A DNA stretch of 64,000 nucleotides from Actinoalloteichus fjordicus (lineage in GTDB: Bacteria > Actinomycetota > Actinomycetes > Mycobacteriales > Pseudonocardiaceae), in the NCBI RefSeq assembly GCF_001941625.1, contig NZ_CP016076.1, forward strand, positions 1,798,001 through 1,862,000, read 5' to 3'. Made by a program: the position numbers and the translations under genes. The notes below the pieces were generated by a model, which was not told the DNA's origin, did not search any database, and saw only the letters and a program-made list of their open reading frames with translations. This document shows, piece by piece, positions 24,370-33,811 of this stretch; within the stretch, counting starts at the first letter, position 1; each line of letters opens with the position of its first letter.

Positions 24370-27225
24370 ATGTCGATGAAGAACGCGCCCGCTGACGAGC
24401 GCAGCGGGGTTGCCGATGCACGGGCAGGCGGGACGGAACTGCCCGCCAAGCTGCGAGTGCACGCCTTGGCGAAGCTGCTGGAGGTACGAAGCAAGGACGT
24501 GTTGACTGCGCTGGAGGCGTTGGGGGCCGAGGTTCGCAGCGCCCAGTCGAGCGTGTCCCGCGACCTGGCACTTCAGGTGATCGAGAAGCTGGCGCCCGCC
24601 GAGGAGGCCGCCGGGACCCCGAGCGCGGCCGCCGAGGAGTCTGCCGCCGCTGCCGAGCAGCCCGCCGAGGACTCCGGTCCGAGGGCTGCCGCCGCACCGG
24701 TCTTCGCGCCGCCGCAGCCGGTCTTCCTCCCGCCGCAGCCCGCGGCGGCGCCCGCCGCTCGCCAGGCACCCGCCAAGCAGGCCGCAGCGAAGCAGCCGCA
24801 GGCTGCCGAGCCGGTCGAACAGGCCGTAGTCTCCCCCTCGGCGCCCGAGGACGTCGACGAGGACGAAGACGCAGGCAGCAGGCGTCGCCGCCGACGCGGA
24901 CGCCGGGGACGGGGCCGAGGACGAGGCGGCCAGGACGCGGAGGGCGGCGAGGAGCCCGGCGACGACGAGGACGGCACGCCCGCCGAGACCGCCGCTGACG
25001 TCGTGCCCGAGGCCCCTGCGGAGGAGCAGGCGGCCGCCGAGCAGGACGGAGAGGACACCGAGGGCGAGCAGTCGGAGGGCAGCAGGCGCCGTCGACGTCG
25101 CAGGCGGCGGAAGGGCACTGCCGAGGACGACGCGGCCTCGCGGTCCGACGACCCGCCGAACACGGTGGTGCACGTCAGGGAGAGCAAGCCCGCGCAGGTC
25201 AAGGCCGAGCCAGTCGTCGAGGACGAGGTCCGTTCGGTACGCGGCTCCACCCGTCTGGAGGCCAAGCGCCAGCGACGGCGCGACGGCCGGGAGGCGGGCC
25301 GCAGGCGCGTGCCGGTGCTGTCGGAGGCCGAGTTCCTGGCTCGTCGTGAGTCGGTGGAACGTCGGATGGTCGTGCGTGAGCGCGGCGACCGCACGCAGAT
25401 CGCGGTGCTGGAGGACGGCGTCCTCGTCGAGCACTTCGTGACGTCGTCGGGCACCGGATCGATCGTGGGCAACGTCTACCTCGGCCGAGTCCAGAACGTG
25501 CTGCCGAGCATGGAGGCCGCGTTCGTCGACATCGGCCGCGGCCGTAACGCCGTGCTCTACGCGGGCGAGGTCGACTGGGACGCCGCAGGCCTGGAGGGCA
25601 AGGCCCGCAAGATCGAGCAGGCGCTGTCCACCGGGGACAGCGTGCTGGTCCAGGTCACCAAGGAGCCGGTCGGGCACAAGGGCGCCCGCCTGACCACCCA
25701 GATCAGCCTCCCCGGGCGATTCCTGGTCTACGTGCCCGGCGGCGGTGCCACCGGCATCAGCCGGAAGCTCCCCGACGTCGAGCGCAAGCGGTTGAAGGAG
25801 ATCCTCAAGCGGATCGTCCCCGACGAGGCAGGTGTGATCATCCGCACCGCGTCGGAGGGCACCAGCGAGGAGTCCCTGGATCGGGACGTCCGCAGGCTGC
25901 GTGCCCAGTGGGAGATCATCAAGGAGCGGGCCGCCATTCCGCGCGCCCAGGCGCCGCAACTGCTGTACGAGGAGCCGGACCTGCTCATCAAGGTCGTCCG
26001 TGACCTCTTCACCGAGGACTTCTCCGGCCTGGTCGTCCAGGGCGACACCGCGTGGGACACCATCGAGTCGTACGTGAACCACGTGGCGCCGGATCTGGTG
26101 GGCAGGCTCCGCAGGCACGTCGGCCTGAAGGACGCCTTCACCGAGCACCGGGTGGACGAGCAGCTGGCCAAGGCACTGGATCGGAAGGTTTGGCTGCCCT
26201 CCGGCGGTTACCTGGTGATCGACCGCACCGAGGCGATGACGGTCGTCGACGTCAACACCGGCAAGTTCACCGGCTCCGGCGGAAACCTGGAGGAGACGGT
26301 CACCAGGAACAACCTGGAGTCGGTGGAGGAGATCGTCCGGCAGCTCCGGCTGCGGGACATCGGCGGCATCATCGTCATCGACTTCATCGACATGGTCCTG
26401 GAGTCCAACCGTGACCTCGTGCTGCGCAGGCTGACCGAGTGCCTCGGCCGGGATCGCACTCGGCACCAGGTCGCCGAGGTGACCTCCCTGGGGCTGGTGC
26501 AGATGACGCGTAAGCGCGTCGGCACCGGGTTGCTCGAGGCCTACAGCACCACCTGTGAACACTGCCGGGGTCGCGGGGTGATCGTCTCGACCGAGCCGGT
26601 CGGCGCGGTGACGGGCAACGGCGCGTCGGGGACGGCCGGGGCGGCCGCAGGCAACGGCACGGCGAGCCACCAGCATCAGCATGCGGCGCAGGCCGGAGCC
26701 CAGGCCAACGGCGCGGGCGGTTCGGACAAGCAGAACGGCAGCGCTCCTGCTCAGTCGCGGCGGTCGCGGCCCAGGGGCAAGGGCAACGTCGCGCTCGACA
26801 CCGTCGCCGAGACGGCGGCCCAGGCGATGGAGCAGGTCGCCGAGGCTCAGGCGCCGGTCGAGAACAGCCGGGAGAACGGCGACGCACCCCGTCAGGGGCG
26901 TCGGCAGACCAAGGCCGAGGCTCGGGCCGAGGCCAAGGCCGCCCGTGAGGCCGACGCAGCTCGCGCGGCGGAGGAGGCGCGTGCGGCCGAGCCTGCAGGC
27001 GAGCCGCCCGCCGCCGAGGTGGTCGAGAAGCCCGCCGCCGAGCCCGCTCGGCGCAACGGGCACGCGGTGCGGACTCCAGCGGCGGCGCAGGAGACGGTCG
27101 TCGAGCCTGTCGCTCCGGCGGAGCCCGCCGCGACCCCTGCGGCGGCGCCTGCTCGCAGGCAGCGCAGGCGTGCCGCAGCGCGGCCGGCGGGCCCGCCGAA
27201 GGGGAGCCAGACCGACAACGCGTGA
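24370..27225 (+). CDS. rne: Rne/Rng family ribonuclease with IF2_N-like N-terminus
   Basis: Endoribonuclease E/G, about 951 residues, for mRNA turnover and rRNA/tRNA processing. Order: an IF2_N-like domain (residues 24-75, KLRVHALAKLLEVRSKDVL); a Pro/Ala/Glu-rich disordered region with basic SRRRRRRGRRGRGRGRGG clusters; the S1-containing catalytic core from about residue 320 (GNVYLGRVQNVLPSMEAAFVDIG), with metal-binding Asp627 and Asn629 in VDVNTGKF and Asp671 in VIDFIDMV; the zinc-link CEHC (729-732); and an Ala/Glu-rich C-terminal tail. AGGAG is four bases before ATG 24370 and ten before ATG 24376, so the second Met is an equally good start. A terminator follows. Confidence 0.95.
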   Translation: MSMKNAPADERSGVADARAGGTELPAKLRVHALAKLLEVRSKDVLTALEALGAEVRSAQSSVSRDLALQVIEKLAPAEEAAGTPSAAAEESAAAAEQPAEDSGPRAAAAPVFAPPQPVFLPPQPAAAPAARQAPAKQAAAKQPQAAEPVEQAVVSPSAPEDVDEDEDAGSRRRRRRGRRGRGRGRGGQDAEGGEEPGDDEDGTPAETAADVVPEAPAEEQAAAEQDGEDTEGEQSEGSRRRRRRRRRKGTAEDDAASRSDDPPNTVVHVRESKPAQVKAEPVVEDEVRSVRGSTRLEAKRQRRRDGREAGRRRVPVLSEAEFLARRESVERRMVVRERGDRTQIAVLEDGVLVEHFVTSSGTGSIVGNVYLGRVQNVLPSMEAAFVDIGRGRNAVLYAGEVDWDAAGLEGKARKIEQALSTGDSVLVQVTKEPVGHKGARLTTQISLPGRFLVYVPGGGATGISRKLPDVERKRLKEILKRIVPDEAGVIIRTASEGTSEESLDRDVRRLRAQWEIIKERAAIPRAQAPQLLYEEPDLLIKVVRDLFTEDFSGLVVQGDTAWDTIESYVNHVAPDLVGRLRRHVGLKDAFTEHRVDEQLAKALDRKVWLPSGGYLVIDRTEAMTVVDVNTGKFTGSGGNLEETVTRNNLESVEEIVRQLRLRDIGGIIVIDFIDMVLESNRDLVLRRLTECLGRDRTRHQVAEVTSLGLVQMTRKRVGTGLLEAYSTTCEHCRGRGVIVSTEPVGAVTGNGASGTAGAAAGNGTASHQHQHAAQAGAQANGAGGSDKQNGSAPAQSRRSRPRGKGNVALDTVAETAAQAMEQVAEAQAPVENSRENGDAPRQGRRQTKAEARAEAKAAREADAARAAEEARAAEPAGEPPAAEVVEKPAAEPARRNGHAVRTPAAAQETVVEPVAPAEPAATPAAAPARRQRRRAAARPAGPPKGSQTDNA

Positions 27226-27230
27226 CCGAG

Positions 27231-27263
27231 ACGGCGGGGCCTGGATTCATCGGGCCCCGCCGT
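27231..27263 (+). terminator. terminator after rne
   Basis: Perfect 11-bp stem ACGGCGGGGCC / GGCCCCGCCGT with an 11-base loop, five bases past the rne stop and followed by TCTCGT. It separates rne from the ABC-like cassette. Confidence 0.8.
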
Positions 27264-27928
27264 TCTCGTCCCGAGGGGATATCACGGGACCGGCGCGGTG
27301 GGCCGGGTGCGTACGGCGGCTGAGTACCGGCCGGGACGTGCACGACACGGCCACGCCGCGTCGGCGACCGGGCTCCTCCCCACCCCCGACGTGCTCATCG
27401 GTGAACTCTCACAGGCAGCCGGGACGACGCCGAATCGTCAGCCGTCGAGGGCGGCCGCAGGAGAATCACGTTCGGACGCGGTTTGCGTAATCCGTCATCG
27501 AATGCCGGCCCACTTCGTCGCGAATCGCCGTCGACTTCTGGTCGCCGACCCCTCGATCGGCAGAACCGGGCTTCGTGAATGGCGATTCGCAGGCCGGTGC
27601 GTCGATCTGCGGATAGGTCGCGGTCGCGGTCGGCTGTCCGGGTGAATGGTTGCCGCCGGACAGCAGACGCCGGTCTCCCCAACGCCCCGCAGGCGTCCAC
27701 CGGAACCGATCGTCGCCAGCCCCGTCGCCTCTCGAGGCGGGTCACGGCGGTCGGATCGTCGATTCGACCGTATTCGCCGAGATTCGATGTACCCGACGGC
27801 CTGCTCGGCGGGCGAATAGTCGCCGCCGCCGCGAATTCCCGGCCGAGCACTCTCTTGTCTCTCGGGCCGCCGTCGCAGCGATATCGCGCCGATATTCCGA
27901 TCGCAATTCTGTCGGGTCGCCCCGCCGC
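27264..27928. other. 665-bp non-coding region before the ABC-like cassette
   Basis: No convincing gene on either strand. It contains a 10-bp inverted repeat, GCGAATCGCC at 27520-27529 and GGCGATTCGC at 27581-27590, a short tandem GGTCGC repeat near 27616, and towards its right end a slightly A/T-richer stretch with the palindrome GCGATATCGC (27878-27887). Its length and composition suggest a regulated upstream region for the next operon. Confidence 0.5.
27878..27887. promoter_or_regulatory. 10-bp palindrome upstream of the ABC-like cassette
   Basis: GCGATATCGC, a perfect palindrome about 40 bases before the candidate -10 element. The position suits an activator or repressor site; the regulator is unknown. 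Confidence 0.3.
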
Positions 27929-27934
27929 TATGCT
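27929..27934 (+). promoter_or_regulatory. candidate -10 element of the ABC-like cassette
   Basis: TATGCT, 39 bases before the ATG of the pseudo-ATPase gene. A TTCTGT lies 16 bases upstream. It is the best promoter-like sequence in the region. Confidence 0.4.
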
Positions 27935-27973
27935 AGGTGTGATGCAGGGCACTGCGTCGTGCGGGGGTTTCAG

Positions 27974-28642
27974 ATGGGGGCAGGTCTGGTTCTCGACGCC
28001 GTTCGGGCCGACGGGATGGCTCGGTCGGTGAGCCTTGCCGTGCCGGTCGGTGGCATCGCCGGTGTCGTCCTGCCGGACTCGGCGACGTTATGCCGATTCT
28101 CGGACGCGGTGATCGGCACGGGCGACGGCTGGACCGGCCTGGTCACCGTCGGCGGACGACCACGAGCCCGACCGGACACCGCAAGCCTCGACGGGGCGCA
28201 GCCGTTGATCGGCCTCGTCACGGCTGACGGCGGGCTGCTCCCACACCTGAGCCTCCGCGAGAACATCGTCTTCGGCAGGCTGAGCGCCGGTGGCGGGGCG
28301 AGCCCGCGACTGGCAGACGAGGCCGACAAGGCCGCCGAACGGGCAGGCCTGCTGATGAGTCTGGACCGCCATCCGCATCGAGCCACGCCAGGCCAACGAC
28401 AGCAGGCAGGCTTCGCCAGGGTGCTGTTCCGTCGGCGCCCGGCCGTCGTCGTTGAGGATCGGACGGGATTCCCGCGCTGGGCGGGCAGACTCGACGCGGC
28501 TGCCGCCCGGACCGGCGTCGCCCTGCTGGTCGTCACCGATGACCGACGTCGGCTCGACGGATTCGTGCCCGCTGCCGACGTCGTCGATCTGACGCTGCCC
28601 GAGGGTGTCTCCTCGTCGACCGTTCCACCGGATCCGGGATGA
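27974..28642 (+). CDS. degenerate ABC-type ATPase homologue (pseudo-ATPase)
   Basis: 222 residues that follow the layout of an importer ABC ATPase but with every nucleotide-contact motif altered. The Walker A position reads GVVLPDSATLCR (30-41) with no GxxGxGK[ST]. The Q-loop region is GLVTADGGLLPHLSLRENIVFGRL (Gln absent, the LPHLSLRENI helix well kept). The signature position is ATPGQRQQAGFARVL (137-151) instead of LSGGQQQR. Walker B is VVVEDRTG instead of LLLDEP, and the switch is VVTDDRRR instead of VTHD. The fold is therefore recognisable and ATP hydrolysis improbable. ATG 27974 has GGGGG six bases upstream. The stop overlaps the lipoprotein start (ATGA). Likely role: structural or regulatory partner of the permease. 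No frameshift is visible, so this is not a fresh pseudogene. Confidence 0.75.
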   Translation: MGAGLVLDAVRADGMARSVSLAVPVGGIAGVVLPDSATLCRFSDAVIGTGDGWTGLVTVGGRPRARPDTASLDGAQPLIGLVTADGGLLPHLSLRENIVFGRLSAGGGASPRLADEADKAAERAGLLMSLDRHPHRATPGQRQQAGFARVLFRRRPAVVVEDRTGFPRWAGRLDAAAARTGVALLVVTDDRRRLDGFVPAADVVDLTLPEGVSSSTVPPDPG

Positions 28643-29967
28643 CCGCGCGGGGTTCGTCAAGGGCACGCAACGGCGTCTCCCGACGCGCCGTTCTCGGGGC
28701 GCTGGCCCTTCCGCTCGGTGCCGTGGTCGGCATGGGCCCGATCGCAGGCTGCTCGGCCGTCACCGGGTCGCTGCGCGTCGCGGTGACCTGGAGCGGGCGG
28801 GAGCTGGCGTCCTTCCGGCGGGTCCTCGACGTCTTCTCCGCTCAGCACGGTGTCGGCACGGAGATCGTGCCGATGGGCGATGACATCGCCGCGGCACTCG
28901 GCGACCGGCCGGTGGGCTCGCCGGACGTGATCATGCTGCCGCGCCCGGGGCTCCTGCGTTCCGGTGTCGCCTCGGGCGGGCTGGTTCCGCTGGAACTCGA
29001 CGACGACGCGGCCCCGGCAGGCTGGCGGTCGGTCATGTCGGTGGACGGTCGTCGATACGGGTTGCCCTTCAAGATCGTGCACAAGTCCTGTGTCTGGTAC
29101 CGACCGCAGGCACTGGCCGATCTCGGCGAGGACGTCCCCACCACCTGGGAGGAGTGGACGTCGCTCAACGCCAGGCTCGCCGCCGCGGGCCGTACTCCGC
29201 TGGCGTTGGGGGCCGCCGACGGCTGGGTGCTCACCGACTTCTTCGAGAACGTGCTGCTCAGCATCGACCCCGGTGCCTACCGGACACTGGCCGAGACCGG
29301 CATCGGCTGGCGCGGGGACGGCGTGCAGGAGGCGCTGCGCCGGGTCGGGGGGATGTGGGGCGCCCCGTACGCGCTGGCGGGCGGGGCGGTGTCGGCGCTG
29401 GCCACCCAACTCGACGAAGCGGTGCTCGACGTCTTCGCCAGGGACAGGGCCGTGATGACGACCGGCTCGGACTTCGTCTACTCGGTGATCGCCGAGCACA
29501 GCCCGGCCGATCAGGACGGGCGCTGGCAGTGGGATCTCTTCCGGTTCCCCCGTGCCGAGGACGGCGGCGTTGCGCCGCTGGTGATCGGCGGCGACGTCGC
29601 CGTGGTGACGGCCCAGGCGCCGTCGACGGCGACGGACCTGGTCGAGTGGTTGGCCGGGGCGGACGCGGCCACGATCTGGGCGGGCGAGGGCGGGTTCCTC
29701 TCGCTGCGGGCCGACCTCCTCGACAACCGGTATCGCCATGCCCGGCTCGCCCGGCTGGCCAAGGAGGTCCGCGATCCGCCGGGCGGACTGTCCTTCGACC
29801 TCTCTGACCAGCTCGGTGCGCGAGGGGGCAGGCTGTGGGCCGAGTTGCAGCGATTCCTCCGGGAGGTCGAGGGCGCCGACGAGCAGCGCATCGCCCGGCT
29901 CGCCTTCCAGCTCGGCGAGCGGATGGACCGGCCGGTCCACGGCGGCGCCAGGGTCCCGGTGGGCTGA
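28639..29967 (+). CDS. extracellular solute-binding lipoprotein (sugar-type)
   Basis: A 442-residue ABC binding protein of the carbohydrate type (PF01547-like). The signal has a twin-Arg SRRAVLGALALPLG stretch and a lipobox IAGC, so lipidation at Cys38 after Tat or Sec export is expected. The mature protein has LRVAVTWSGRELASFRRVLDVF, GLPFKIVHKSCVWYRP, TWEEWTSL, and DAATIWAGEGGFLSLRAD, all typical of cluster-D/B sugar binders. The start overlaps the preceding gene. It presumably delivers ligand to the fused permease downstream; the ligand is unknown. Confidence 0.88.
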   Translation: MTARGSSRARNGVSRRAVLGALALPLGAVVGMGPIAGCSAVTGSLRVAVTWSGRELASFRRVLDVFSAQHGVGTEIVPMGDDIAAALGDRPVGSPDVIMLPRPGLLRSGVASGGLVPLELDDDAAPAGWRSVMSVDGRRYGLPFKIVHKSCVWYRPQALADLGEDVPTTWEEWTSLNARLAAAGRTPLALGAADGWVLTDFFENVLLSIDPGAYRTLAETGIGWRGDGVQEALRRVGGMWGAPYALAGGAVSALATQLDEAVLDVFARDRAVMTTGSDFVYSVIAEHSPADQDGRWQWDLFRFPRAEDGGVAPLVIGGDVAVVTAQAPSTATDLVEWLAGADAATIWAGEGGFLSLRADLLDNRYRHARLARLAKEVRDPPGGLSFDLSDQLGARGGRLWAELQRFLREVEGADEQRIARLAFQLGERMDRPVHGGARVPVG

Positions 29968-29970
29968 CCC

Positions 29971-32415
29971 GTGGACGAACCGACCCGCGACGGCGGGGAC
30001 CCTCCTGAGCGCCCGGCAGCAGTCCGCCCGGCGCGCAGCCCTCGATCCCGTGCCGCCGACGGTTCCGAGTCCGCCCCGGGGGAGGCGCCGAGCCCCGCGT
30101 CCTCCCCAGGGCCGGAGCCTGCGCCGGAACCGGAGCCTGTTCGCGACTACGTGGAGCTGGAGACGGTCGGACGCGATGTGACCGGGCCGTCGGTGCACGG
30201 CGTGGCGGCTCGACCACAGCGCGCGCACTTCCTGTCCGTCGTCAGCCTCCGCGTCGTGGCGAACGTCTTCGCGGTGCTCCTGGCCGCGCTGCTCGTCACC
30301 TCGATCCTGGCGACCATCTGGCGCAGCATCCGGCTGGACGGACCGACCGGCGGCCTCGGCATGTCGCACTACGTCGCGGTGCTGTCCGACCAGACGATGC
30401 GCGCTGCGCTGCTGCGCAGCGGACTCTGGGCGGCGGTGGCCGTCGGCGTGGCCCTGCTCGGACTGATCGTGGCCGCGCTCGGGCGATTCGTCGGCGACGC
30501 CTCGCGGTTGCTCACCCTGCCCCTGCTCATCCCGCTGGCCGCCTCGATGCTGGTGACCGGCGCGGCCTTCCGCCTGCTCGTCGACCCCGACCCCGACCGA
30601 GGGATGATCAGCGCCGTCGCCGTCGCAGGCTACGAGGCCCTGGCCGACCCTGCCCCTGCCGGCGGGGCACGACCCGACGAGACGGCACCGGAGGAATCGC
30701 GCCTGTACGACCAGGGCGACCTGGTCACCACGTTCAACTACCGGGCGGGATGTCACGTCGACCTGCGGGTGGTGACCCCTCGCGAGGCTCCCGAGCCCCG
30801 TCCCGGCTCGCCTGAGTCGTCGGACGAGACGTCCGACCGAGATCCCGTGTCCTGCGTCGACCCCGATTCGCAGCCGCCGAACCGGATCACCGGCACCCTG
30901 CATGACCAGTCAGGGGCACTGCCCGGGGTCACGGTGCGAGCCGACGCCTTCGGCATCGACCCGGTGGAGACGGTGACCGACGACCGTGGTCGTTTCGCCG
31001 TGGAACTCGGGCCTGCCGGGGCGACCGAGTCCGTCGATCACCGACTGATCATCCCGGAGCGGTCGACCACGCCCCCCTGGCCCGGACCGCAGCCGTATCG
31101 AGCCGAGGTGATCTGGATTCCCTTGGTGCTGGCCTTCACCTGGGCCTGGCTGGGCTTCGCCGTCTCACTGTTCCGGACGAGGCTCAACGTCATCCCGCCG
31201 GACCTGGTGCGGGTCGCGAAGGCCGAGGGCCTGCGCCCCCTGCACCGGCTCACGCGCGTGATCGTGCCGCTGCTGAGACCGGTGATCACCGTCGTGCTGT
31301 TGACCTTGATGGTCGCCGCGGTTCGGCTGTTCGACCTGATGCTGGTCATGGTCCCCGGCCCGCTCCAGGCCGACGTCGAGGTCGGCGCGCTGCTCTGGTG
31401 GCGCTCGCCCGAGGCGACGCCGGGGGAGCGGGCGGCCATGGCCACGCTGCTGTTCGGCATGGTCGCGGTGGTCGCGCTCGGCGCGGTGTGGGGCGTTCGA
31501 CAGGCGCGCGGCGTGACCAGCGTGATCCTGCCGGTGCCCGCACCCGCCGAGCGAGTCCCGCTCATCGGCCCGCCGATGCGACAACGGACTCTCCTGCGTC
31601 GATCGATCGCGGTCCTGCTCGGGCTGCTGGGGCTGATCTGGCTGTCGCCCCTCATCGTGCTCGTCGGGACCTCCCTGCGGTCGCCTGCCGACGCCGCGCT
31701 GACGGGATTCTGGAACGGCGGCATCGACGGTCTCGGGCTCGCCTCGTTTCGCGCGGCGCTGGACAACGGCCTGATCGGCGCGCTCGGGGCGAGTCTGTTC
31801 ATGGCGGGCACCACGGCGCTGCTGGTGGCGGTGATCGCAGGCTCGGTCGGCCACGCACTGGCCTGGAGCGTCGCAGGCCCACGCCTGGTCAGCGCCGTCG
31901 TGATCGTGTTGGCGCTGCTCGCCGTGGCGCCTGTGCAGCTTTACGCCGCGCCGATGGCCGAGTGGTTCGCCGCCACCAATCTGACCGGGACCTCCCTCAA
32001 CCTCGCGTTGATCCTCGCGCACACGGCGGCTGGCCTGCCGTTCGCGATCCTGCTGATGCGCGGCGCATTCCTCACCACCTCCTCCCCGCTGGACCAGACG
32101 TTGACGGGCGAGATCGACCGCCAGGCCGAGGGCCTCGGGCTCATCCGGCGACACTGGGACGCCGTCGTCGCCGTCGCGGTGCTCGAGTTCGTCCTGGTCT
32201 GGAACGACCTGGTGATGGGGCTGCTGCTCGGCGGGACGCCCGCCTCGCCGCTGACGCTGCTGCTGTGGGGCGAGCTTCGTTGGTTCCACACCTCGGCGGG
32301 CCCGATCGCGGCGGCGGCGGTCTTCTCGCTGATCGTGCCGTTGATCGTGCTCGGACTGGGATGGCGAACGGCCGTCCGAGGGCTGACGGGGGTGCGTCGC
32401 CGTGCAGGCCGATGA
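29971..32415 (+). CDS. fused MalF-MalG-type permease with extracytoplasmic insert domain
   Basis: 814 residues made of two ABC sugar-permease halves. Order: a Pro/Glu-rich cytoplasmic N-terminus (1-85), three helices (about 90-113, 142-166, 175-198), an extracytoplasmic insert of about 150 residues (222-375), further helices, a first EAA-like loop RVAKAEGLRPLHRLTRVIVP, then from about residue 540 a second permease half whose EAA-like loop is degenerate (RQAEGLGLIRRHWDAVVAV). The insert contains two Cys (near 261 and 295) and a segment RITGTLHDQSGALPGVTVRA ... TDDRGRFAVEL that resembles carboxypeptidase-regulatory-like beta-sandwich domains. It lies after the third helix, where E. coli MalF carries its P2 loop that touches the binding protein. 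GTG start four bases after the lipoprotein stop. Confidence 0.82.
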   Translation: MDEPTRDGGDPPERPAAVRPARSPRSRAADGSESAPGEAPSPASSPGPEPAPEPEPVRDYVELETVGRDVTGPSVHGVAARPQRAHFLSVVSLRVVANVFAVLLAALLVTSILATIWRSIRLDGPTGGLGMSHYVAVLSDQTMRAALLRSGLWAAVAVGVALLGLIVAALGRFVGDASRLLTLPLLIPLAASMLVTGAAFRLLVDPDPDRGMISAVAVAGYEALADPAPAGGARPDETAPEESRLYDQGDLVTTFNYRAGCHVDLRVVTPREAPEPRPGSPESSDETSDRDPVSCVDPDSQPPNRITGTLHDQSGALPGVTVRADAFGIDPVETVTDDRGRFAVELGPAGATESVDHRLIIPERSTTPPWPGPQPYRAEVIWIPLVLAFTWAWLGFAVSLFRTRLNVIPPDLVRVAKAEGLRPLHRLTRVIVPLLRPVITVVLLTLMVAAVRLFDLMLVMVPGPLQADVEVGALLWWRSPEATPGERAAMATLLFGMVAVVALGAVWGVRQARGVTSVILPVPAPAERVPLIGPPMRQRTLLRRSIAVLLGLLGLIWLSPLIVLVGTSLRSPADAALTGFWNGGIDGLGLASFRAALDNGLIGALGASLFMAGTTALLVAVIAGSVGHALAWSVAGPRLVSAVVIVLALLAVAPVQLYAAPMAEWFAATNLTGTSLNLALILAHTAAGLPFAILLMRGAFLTTSSPLDQTLTGEIDRQAEGLGLIRRHWDAVVAVAVLEFVLVWNDLVMGLLLGGTPASPLTLLLWGELRWFHTSAGPIAAAAVFSLIVPLIVLGLGWRTAVRGLTGVRRRAGR

Positions 32416-33811
32416 CGAGCGTCGAGGCGACGGCGAGGTGCGGGAGCGGGTCGTCAAGATCCTGGCCTGGCTGCCTCTCGGACTGCTCTCGGCCGCGTTC
32501 GCGGAGGCCGTCCTCGCGCGGCCGGACAGCCGGATCTCGCTGGCGATCATCGTGTCCGCCGGTGCCTGCACGGCTGCGCTGGCGTGGATCGGCGTCGCGG
32601 CCGTGCGTTCCTGGCGTCGGCGCAGGCCCGCCGACGTGGAGCGCCCCGCGCCCGCGCGCCCCGGCCGCCGACGCGCTGCGGCCGGGACGATCCGCTTCTA
32701 TGCCCGCCGTGCCGAGTTCCATGCGGCCGACCTGGCCGTCCCCACCCGTCGCACCGGGGCCGAGAAATGGTTCGCCGAGGAGGAGGACCGGATGGTCGCG
32801 CTCCTGTGGAGCGGCGACGTCCGACTGAACGAGCTGCGTCGACTTCGGGTCATCGCGAGTGCCCTGGAGGTCTGGTTCTCGCGGCAGCGCCGCTACGTCG
32901 ACCTGCGGGGACTCGCCGATGCGATCGAGGCGGCGTGCGAGCAGGCCGCCCGGCGACGGGTCGACGACCTCCGACGTCGGTTGCGGCGATCACCGGGTCG
33001 GGTGACGCGGCAACCGGATGCAGAGGTACGCAACCTCGCGCGGATCACCCGCGCCACCGCGCTCCGACTCGAGGGACAGGCCGAGCTGGCCGAGAAGGAA
33101 CTCGGCTCGATCACCATGACGGACTCGGGCGCGCTCTCGGGTCGGGAGAACAACGCGTGGGCCGTGCTTCGCCTGCTCGAGGCGGAACACGGCAGGCTCA
33201 CCGGGACGCTGTCCGCCCATCAGGAGGACGACGCCCTGCAAGAGGCGGAGAGCTGTCTTCGGGACGCCGCCGAGCGGCTGCCCTCCTCCGATCTGCACGC
33301 CTGGATCGGCGTTCGGATCAACCTGGGCGTCCTGCGGCTGCGTCGAGGGGAGCCGCAGCACGCCCTCCACCACCTCAATGAGGCGGAATGGCTGGCCAGA
33401 CAGGTCGAGGACCACTCGGCCGAGGCCCACGCGGTGGAGCTGTGCGGAGTGGCCGAGTGGCGGCTCGGCGATCGGGCGCACGCGTGTCGGCGGTGGCGCG
33501 CGGCCGAGGAGGTCTTCAGGGATCTCGGCGATGACGCGGGCCTGGCGCGCTGTCTGCTGCACGGTGGCACCGCACTGCTCGTCCAGCCGGACCTCGGTAA
33601 GGCGCTGTCCGACGATACGGAGTCGTGGACGGTGGAGCATGCGGCGGCCGTCGCGCTGGACCGCCTCGACCGCAGTATCGAGCTTCGAGGCGGGGAACCC
33701 GCCGACTCACCGGGACTCGTGCTCGCTCATCGGTATCGTGACCAGGCAGAACGCCTCCTGAGGGGGAGTGGGCGGCCGGGGGCCTCCGCAGCGGACGCCA
33801 CCCCGGTTTGA
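32402..33811 (+). CDS. membrane-anchored TPR-like protein of the ABC cassette
   Basis: 469 residues, not recognised as a named family. An N-terminal pair of hydrophobic segments (about residues 22-68, ILAWLPLGLLSAAFAEAV and IIVSAGACTAALAWIGV) is followed by an Arg/Pro-rich linker and a long helical region. That region has Ala/Leu/Glu periodicity like tetratricopeptide repeats (RLEGQAELAEKELGS, WIGVRINLGVLRLRRGEPQHALHHL, LCGVAEWRLGDRAHACRRWRAA). The GTG start lies 14 bases inside the permease gene, so the two are translationally linked. Probably a cytoplasmic scaffold held at the membrane; function unknown. Confidence 0.75.
   Translation: MQADDERRGDGEVRERVVKILAWLPLGLLSAAFAEAVLARPDSRISLAIIVSAGACTAALAWIGVAAVRSWRRRRPADVERPAPARPGRRRAAAGTIRFYARRAEFHAADLAVPTRRTGAEKWFAEEEDRMVALLWSGDVRLNELRRLRVIASALEVWFSRQRRYVDLRGLADAIEAACEQAARRRVDDLRRRLRRSPGRVTRQPDAEVRNLARITRATALRLEGQAELAEKELGSITMTDSGALSGRENNAWAVLRLLEAEHGRLTGTLSAHQEDDALQEAESCLRDAAERLPSSDLHAWIGVRINLGVLRLRRGEPQHALHHLNEAEWLARQVEDHSAEAHAVELCGVAEWRLGDRAHACRRWRAAEEVFRDLGDDAGLARCLLHGGTALLVQPDLGKALSDDTESWTVEHAAAVALDRLDRSIELRGGEPADSPGLVLAHRYRDQAERLLRGSGRPGASAADATPV

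Follow-up and report, generated by a model that had tools for sequence, protein, structure and literature searches.

A four-gene actinobacterial cassette built like a carbohydrate ABC importer with a dead ATPase may act as a transmembrane receptor

We analysed a 64,000-nt stretch of the Actinoalloteichus fjordicus chromosome (NZ_CP016076.1, positions 1,798,001 to 1,862,000; hereafter the window, with positions counted from its first letter), in which four genes resembling an ATP-binding cassette (ABC) importer span 27974-33811 on the forward strand. The first two open reading frames (ORFs) overlap by 4 nt, 3 nt separate the second from the third, and the third and fourth overlap by 14 nt; Pfam identifies an RNase_E_G protein upstream and ribosomal proteins L21 and L27 followed by Obg downstream, that is, an rne / rplU setting. 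The row of touching or overlapping genes between the RNase E/G gene and rplU, described in a first-pass annotation of the same DNA, is therefore real by both its ORFs and its Pfam-assigned flanks. It comprises the following features:

27974..28642, forward strand: pseudo-ATPase, a homologue of ABC nucleotide-binding domains, 222 aa (motif alignment, Pfam, substitution rates)
28639..29967, forward strand: solute-binding lipoprotein with a twin-arginine motif, SBP_bac_1 carbohydrate type, 442 aa (Pfam, PDB matches, sequence patterns)
29971..32415, forward strand: fused MalF+MalG-like permease, 814 aa, GTG start (Pfam, NCBIfam, alignment)
30586..31095, forward strand: extracytoplasmic insertion in permease half 1, about residues 206-375 (read from the alignment, boundaries approximate)
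32402..33811, forward strand: two-helix membrane protein with a TPR-fold domain (homology to the two ends of a STAND-TPR protein, structural model)
27226..27973, forward strand: non-coding spacer between the RNase E/G gene and the cassette, 748 nt (variable length, little conservation, no Rfam match)

All four genes occupy the same place in two further species of the genus (tblastn), where the solute-binding protein (SBP) is 82 and 67 % and the permease 79 and 69 % identical to that of the window. Among the three congeners the cassette genes carry no internal stops, and their ratios of nonsynonymous to synonymous substitution (dN/dS; Nei-Gojobori, with the fourth gene of one congener cut short) lie between 0.16 and 0.33; judged by this conservation, the arrangement is more than chance. 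In total, 37 cassette loci were read, the window included, the 36 others lying at several chromosomal sites (labels such as f3, g49, G034 and L067 are family, genus, genome and similar identifiers of the sampled genome set). Family f3 contributes 29 of them (28 from g49 and 1 from g156), and in all 29 the four genes stand together, one fourth gene running off its contig; among the matches listed, most of these loci show 4-nt gene overlaps. The first-pass annotation had proposed looking for the four-gene order in other genomes, with a lack of co-occurrence counting against its proposal; the order recurs in the family f3 loci as well as in the congeners, in G034 and in Nonomuraea gerenzanensis. 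The Nonomuraea locus (L033), in the same four-gene order, came from a tblastn match to the permease in a plasmid collection, while two scans of genome contigs yielded no useful permease relatives.

Searching 60 genomes of the window's family for the fourth protein gave three matches (the window's own genome, one congener and G034), and G034 holds the full cassette, likewise between rne and rplU-rpmA-obgE. The cassette lies beside rne-rplU in four genomes of this family and at other sites in the remaining genomes. An SBP alignment run against 148 genomes of the class matched 29 places in 23 genomes (E <= 1e-40); the 28 non-own places comprise 25 loci of a sister importer (see below), one cassette (G167) and two that are neither. 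A second SBP alignment, run against 219 genomes of the order, matched 21 places in 20 genomes, 13 of which hold the cassette (own and G167 included) and the other 7 the sister importer, with one importer locus (L088) cut off after the SBP gene; one genome, G397, holds both systems. A single-sequence search with the Nonomuraea SBP matched 1 of the 148 class genomes; it recovered no genome of the sister-importer group and missed G167, and therefore says little about breadth.

The first gene product scores 18.2 bits against Pfam ABC_tran (cut-off 25) and, at 222 aa, is too short for a MalK-type C-terminal domain. Relatives from family f3 (one member, 54 bits), Nonomuraea (33.6 bits) and G034 (26.5 bits) do exceed the cut-off, so the pseudo-ATPases remain ABC-fold homologues. 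In the window protein the Walker A lysine, Q-loop glutamine, signature, Walker B glutamate and switch histidine are all replaced, which bears out its first-pass designation as a pseudo-ATPase. We aligned the proteins of 34 of the 37 loci (no ATPase-like gene was found beside the G167 and G399 cassettes, and the contig ends in L073) with 12 control ATPases, namely the SugC-type ATPase of the window's genome and 11 from sister loci, two of them from L052 (E <= 1e-90 to SugC). Four catalytic residues, the Walker A lysine, the Q-loop glutamine, the Walker B glutamate and the switch histidine, are each present in 12/12 controls and in 0/34 pseudo-ATPases, the glutamine being replaced by alanine throughout and the glutamate by leucine (29) or aspartate (5). 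Not one of the 34 thus has any of the four catalytic residues required in a functional Type I carbohydrate ABC importer, and, by this alignment, the residues for the usual ATP binding and hydrolysis are lost. Retained positions are the Walker B aspartate (29/34) and the signature serine (27/34), whereas the two signature glycines occur in 0/34 and 3/34. Nor was a G-x4-GK[ST] motif found in any pseudo-ATPase or STAND row, and intact Walker motifs, which the first-pass annotation had named as evidence that would speak against its proposal, are seen in none of the 34 cassette homologues.

Agreement with the intact consensus is highest between the Q-loop and the signature (0.33, a modest difference from 0.25 and 0.17 elsewhere), the subdomain that docks on the permeases in known importers. 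The pseudo-ATPase gene gives dN/dS values of 0.156, 0.189 and 0.181 among the three congeners, compared with 0.223-0.294 for the SBP, 0.247-0.301 for the permease, 0.283-0.327 for the fourth gene and 0.102 for Obg (one pair). Within the window's genus, purifying selection thus acts on the dead ATPase, the most constrained of the four cassette genes.

The second gene product belongs to SBP_bac_1 (Pfam, 53.8 bits, cut-off 26) and finds sugar-binding SBPs in the PDB (best E 9e-12). Its sequence reads SRRAVL ... IAGC at the twin-arginine and lipobox-like stretch, and simple patterns locate a twin-arginine motif in 36/36 and a lipobox-like cysteine in 35/36 SBPs (L073, cut by a contig end, was excluded), in agreement with the earlier description of a Tat-type solute-binding lipoprotein. 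Residues invariant among five divergent members, for example in a DGW-L-D-FEN-L stretch, suggest that a ligand or docking site is still in use. More distant solute-binding lipoproteins related to that of the cassette are encoded at L068 (11459-13174) and L069 (3177-4526), with no permease detected alongside in the stretch read.

The third gene product passes the Pfam BPD_transp_1 cut-off (37.4 bits, cut-off 26.4) and shows about twelve hydrophobic segments once overlaps are merged. By NCBIfam, its two halves are nearest to the archaeal glucose permeases GlcT and GlcU, far under their cut-offs, and among solved structures its best sequence match is SugA (8ja7 chain A, E 4e-11) of LpqY-SugABC, a trehalose importer that differs in having two separate permeases. 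The insertion in half 1 is present in 4/37 permeases (window, two congeners and G034), all longer than 650 aa; it holds a sub-threshold CarboxypepD_reg stretch (306-350) and aligns with the insertion of Streptomyces MalF-type importer permeases. The fusion and the extracytoplasmic domain reported at first pass are thus both there, with the correction that Streptomyces importer permeases have the insertion too.

In 35/37 loci the permease retains coupling loop 1, recognised by Ala at position 2 or 3 and Gly at 7. It is broken only in L067 and L070, the two cassettes in which no ATPase-like gene was found (G167 and G399), which suggests that the pseudo-ATPase itself docks on loop 1. These two cassettes have neither the pseudo-ATPase gene nor the STAND module described below, and the SBP, the fused permease and a membrane TPR protein that remain are perhaps a minimal core. 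Against the MalT TPR family, the TPR part of the L067 protein scores 17.2 bits, short of the cut-off of 45.

The fourth protein of the window consists of two hydrophobic helices followed by a TPR-fold domain, its TPR hits lying below the Pfam cut-off. Its relatives in Nonomuraea (757 aa) and G034 (787 aa) share an architecture of one or two membrane helices (hydropathy), an NB-ARC/AAA-like module (Pfam, sub-threshold) and TPR-like repeats. When six such proteins are combined into a profile, its positions 97-686 match AfsR (E 5e-41); next come TPR proteins such as LGN and, more weakly, plant NLRs. The STAND (AfsR-like) module occurs in 32/37 loci and is absent from the three congeners (window included), L067 and L070. 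In all 32 modules the P-loop lysine is missing, the motif reading G-x4-G-T-S in 31 and G-x4-G-S-S in 1. The window protein aligns with the C-terminal part of the G034 protein (38 % identity over 374 aa) and of the Nonomuraea protein (25 % over 341 aa), and by this homology it is a remnant, the two ends of a STAND-TPR protein without the ATPase module. Four relatives (families f3 and f47) pass the Pfam TPR cut-off, whereas the window, G034 and Nonomuraea proteins stay below it. A single-sequence model of the window protein is fair to confident at about residues 245-455, with the rest largely below a predicted local distance difference test (pLDDT) score of 50, and the modelled region matches the TPRs of LGN and Rap proteins (best E 1.5e-4). 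The two-helix TPR-like membrane protein of the first-pass annotation was accordingly correct in its helices and fold but incomplete, as it missed the STAND ancestry and the dead ATPase site seen in relatives; it also missed the live sister importer and how far the cassette has spread.

The closest relatives found of the cassette SBP and permease, with which they share the insertion domain, belong to a family of actinobacterial sugar importers composed of an SBP, MalF and MalG, with a GH13 gene in some loci (32 loci, L042-L066 and L081-L087). In Streptomyces, the MalF of this sister importer carries an extracytoplasmic carboxypeptidase-regulatory-like insertion. Where an ATPase gene is adjacent, the order is also alike (ATPase-SBP-permease-permease). 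In contrast to the cassette, the permeases of the sister importer are separate, both coupling loops are canonical in the Streptomyces SAT1 reference, and adjacent SugC-type ATPases are intact. Such an ATPase lies intact upstream in 9 of the 32 loci, only its end is present in 1 (L084, at a contig edge), and none is found within the stretch read in the other 22. Counting L088, ten sister-group loci have an intact ATPase upstream of the SBP gene, nine continuing with MalF and MalG and L088 ending after the SBP. An intact ATPase in the same gene position is therefore seen in the sister group, in nine cases next to separate permeases, but not within the cassette. A STAND-like stretch (30 % identity to the Nonomuraea protein) occurs near only 1 of the 32 loci (L082, 7195-8124, plus strand), on the opposite strand to the importer.

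In a tree of 16 of the 37 cassette SBPs, 22 importer SBPs (from the 32 loci) and the 2 distant ones, cassette and importer SBPs split on one branch with support of 100/100. The tree is midpoint-rooted, L033 and L073 form long branches and many rows have skewed composition, and for these reasons a single origin of the cassette is possible but not proven by the sequences. The simplest history would be that, in a live ATPase-SBP-permease-permease importer, the permeases became fused, the ATPase died and a STAND-TPR partner was gained.

We consider it probable, on these comparisons, that the cassette is a catalytically dead carbohydrate-type ABC importer that acts as a transmembrane receptor and not as a transporter. 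The sequences show that the genes stay linked, that the catalytic residues are gone, that selection within the window's genus is purifying and that the partner in relatives has STAND-like ancestry; ligand binding, docking, the direction of the signal and its output are inferred. The lipoprotein would bind a solute, probably a sugar as its family suggests, outside the membrane. As in MalFGK2-type importers, the loaded SBP would then dock on the fused permease and shift it, and the pseudo-ATPase, its catalytic residues lost, may read this shift through coupling loop 1. The state would reach the membrane-anchored fourth protein, of STAND/TPR descent by the homology of its relatives, through a putative contact, and this protein might hold or release a cytoplasmic partner. 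Overall, such a device would resemble MalK holding the STAND regulator MalT, minus the transport and ATPase activities.

Several observations weigh against this receptor reading. L067 and L070 are sisters in the SBP tree, and the joint absence of an intact loop 1 and of an ATPase-like gene may therefore reflect one event. Coupling loop 2 scores 0/37 on the alignment, but moving one gap gives a near-canonical loop (e.g. RDARLGG) in the 29 family f3 permeases; the score is partly an alignment effect, and these permeases have not lost coupling features. We accordingly dropped the idea that loop 2 is dead in all members; we claim its loss solely for Nonomuraea and for the window's genus, in which it reads QTLTGEI, RRAAAAD and RMLTGEV. 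Single relatives of the fourth protein fall below the Pfam NB-ARC and AAA cut-offs, so that STAND membership rests on the AfsR profile match; among four further relatives, one gave a sub-threshold AAA hit and three had no NB-ARC or AAA hit at E <= 0.01. The module is gone from the window's own genus, so the STAND step cannot be the whole mechanism there today. The cassette is also patchy, found in 2/148 class genomes (own included) at E <= 1e-40, and in g49, the best-sampled genus, an SBP match occurs in 35/91 genomes (E <= 1e-85). Finally, a single-sequence model of the pseudo-ATPase is uninformative (pLDDT 35.5).

The first-pass annotation had weighed a system that borrows its ATPase against a sensor or adhesion complex that has lost transport; nothing turned up in favour of adhesion, at which no test was aimed. 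In the borrowing system, the cassette would be a working importer driven by a shared active ATPase of the MsiK or SugC type, with the pseudo-ATPase serving as a regulator or as one half of a mixed dimer. MsiK is shared among importers, some ABC proteins pair an active site with a degenerate one, and the window's genome encodes a SugC-type ATPase with all motifs; the 22 sister loci without such a gene in the stretch read are what sharing would predict, and both the retention of loop 1 and the near-canonical reading of loop 2 in family f3 fit this explanation. A shared MsiK-type ATPase is, however, expected to need both coupling loops intact, for two ATPase copies. The window permease has both halves and a recognisable loop 1, but its loop 2 is destroyed, as in the rest of the genus, and loop 1 is broken in the two loci that would depend most on borrowing, those in which no ATPase-like gene was found. 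Borrowing would also leave unexplained why a dead ATPase is constrained and why the STAND/TPR partner is constant; we regard it as unlikely. The pattern of loop 1, kept in nearly all loci and broken only where the ATPase-like gene is missing, favours the sensor.

No more probable, in our view, is a transport-free scaffold without solute sensing, in which the dead importer does no more than keep the STAND/TPR protein membrane-bound, perhaps to help organise the cell envelope. Catalytic residues are gone while fold and linkage are retained, and the TPR model resembles scaffold TPRs such as those of LGN, but the same model matches Rap-type TPRs, which bind signal peptides, and the invariant SBP residues point to a site in use. 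That the operon is simply decaying toward loss is very improbable: some lineages lack the STAND module, some lack the ATPase-like gene, and the SBP match occurs in 35/91 g49 genomes, yet the low dN/dS values and uninterrupted frames of the congeners, together with replacements that recur across families (Q to A in 34/34, P-loop K to T or S in 32/32), speak against decay.

Two known systems offer models for a receptor of this kind. In Escherichia coli, MalFGK2-MalE has the same carbohydrate-type importer core, and MalK keeps MalT anchored to the membrane as long as no sugar is being transported (PMC10427625); the regulator, a STAND protein whose sensor is made of helical repeats, is contacted by the ATPase subunit and controlled by the state of the importer. 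MalK, however, is an active ATPase and sugar is transported, whereas the cassette ATPase sites are dead, and MalT is a soluble transcription regulator that cycles between ATP and ADP, whereas the cassette partner has membrane helices and is encoded in the same cassette. For the actinobacterial GlnH-GlnX-PknG system, a relay has been proposed in which a membrane protein passes the signal of an SBP on to a kinase with TPRs (PMC8546545), and it likewise combines a lipoprotein SBP sensor, a membrane relay and a TPR domain as a proposed scaffold. It differs in comprising three genes with a kinase output, in an operon that is not known to include a permease or ABC-fold subunit; no kinase was found among the four cassette genes or the Pfam-named flanking genes. 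By analogy, the cassette may work like MalK-MalT or GlnH-GlnX-PknG, and by the features tested it is a member of neither.

Streptomyces AfsR (PDB 8k60, 8jke) has the same NB-ARC/STAND ATPase and TPR architecture, as the profile match indicates, whereas the cassette relatives have membrane helices and no P-loop lysine. AfsR itself has an N-terminal DNA-binding part and a working P-loop. The ATPase of LpqY-SugABC, too, is active.

In the neighbourhood of the cassette, the long non-coding leader reported at first pass is real at 748 nt, but it did not hold up as a conserved element. The spacer measures 748, 946, 203 and 110 nt in four genomes; its clear likeness to the last 700 nt of one congener's spacer is limited to the last ~46 nt (78 %), the comparison with the other congener's spacer revealed none, and no Rfam family matches the 748-nt leader. 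On these grounds it looks like an unconserved spacer, and a conserved riboregulator was rejected. An imperfect inverted repeat at 27227-27268 (~82 %, 44 columns) directly follows the stop codon of the RNase E/G gene and is possibly its terminator; the L037 spacer also has an inverted repeat. The RNase E/G protein (24370-27225) carries an IF2_N-like N-terminal domain (Pfam, 36.3 bits, cut-off 25.3).

In family f3, a WYL-type regulator precedes the cassette in 19/29 loci and an ABC exporter-like ATPase gene follows it in 16/29 (names assigned by eye):

About +5400 from the SBP gene, same strand: ABC exporter-like ATPase gene (L071, L072, L075, L093-L097, L099-L101, L103, L105, L106, L108, L110)

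The two are possibly a local output. As a general partner of the cassette, the exporter gene was rejected, being there in 16 of the 29 family f3 loci and not seen beside the window's cassette. Neighbours of the Nonomuraea cassette on the opposite strand (L033, 9525-10899) look by eye like an anti-sigma factor and an ECF sigma factor.

No description of the cassette was among the matches listed from openly licensed PMC papers, an absence that is weak evidence. It is possible, with the odds slightly against it, that the cassette represents a new class of transmembrane receptor, in which actinobacteria have remodelled a complete ABC importer, perhaps a single time, for signalling that needs no ATP; its pseudo-ATPase would communicate with a membrane-anchored pseudo-STAND protein, both nucleotide sites having become fixed as dead. 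Automatic annotation probably labels these genes as sugar transporters, which would be wrong if they encode a receptor. An ABC importer could then evolve into a receptor that neither moves a substrate nor uses ATP, with pseudoenzymes in both halves of the relay. The cassette would offer a transport-free setting for studying how SBP docking is felt on the cytoplasmic side, a step usually clouded by ATP turnover, and the idea drawn from MalK and MalT, that the state of an importer controls a STAND protein, would extend to a dedicated cassette found at different chromosomal sites.

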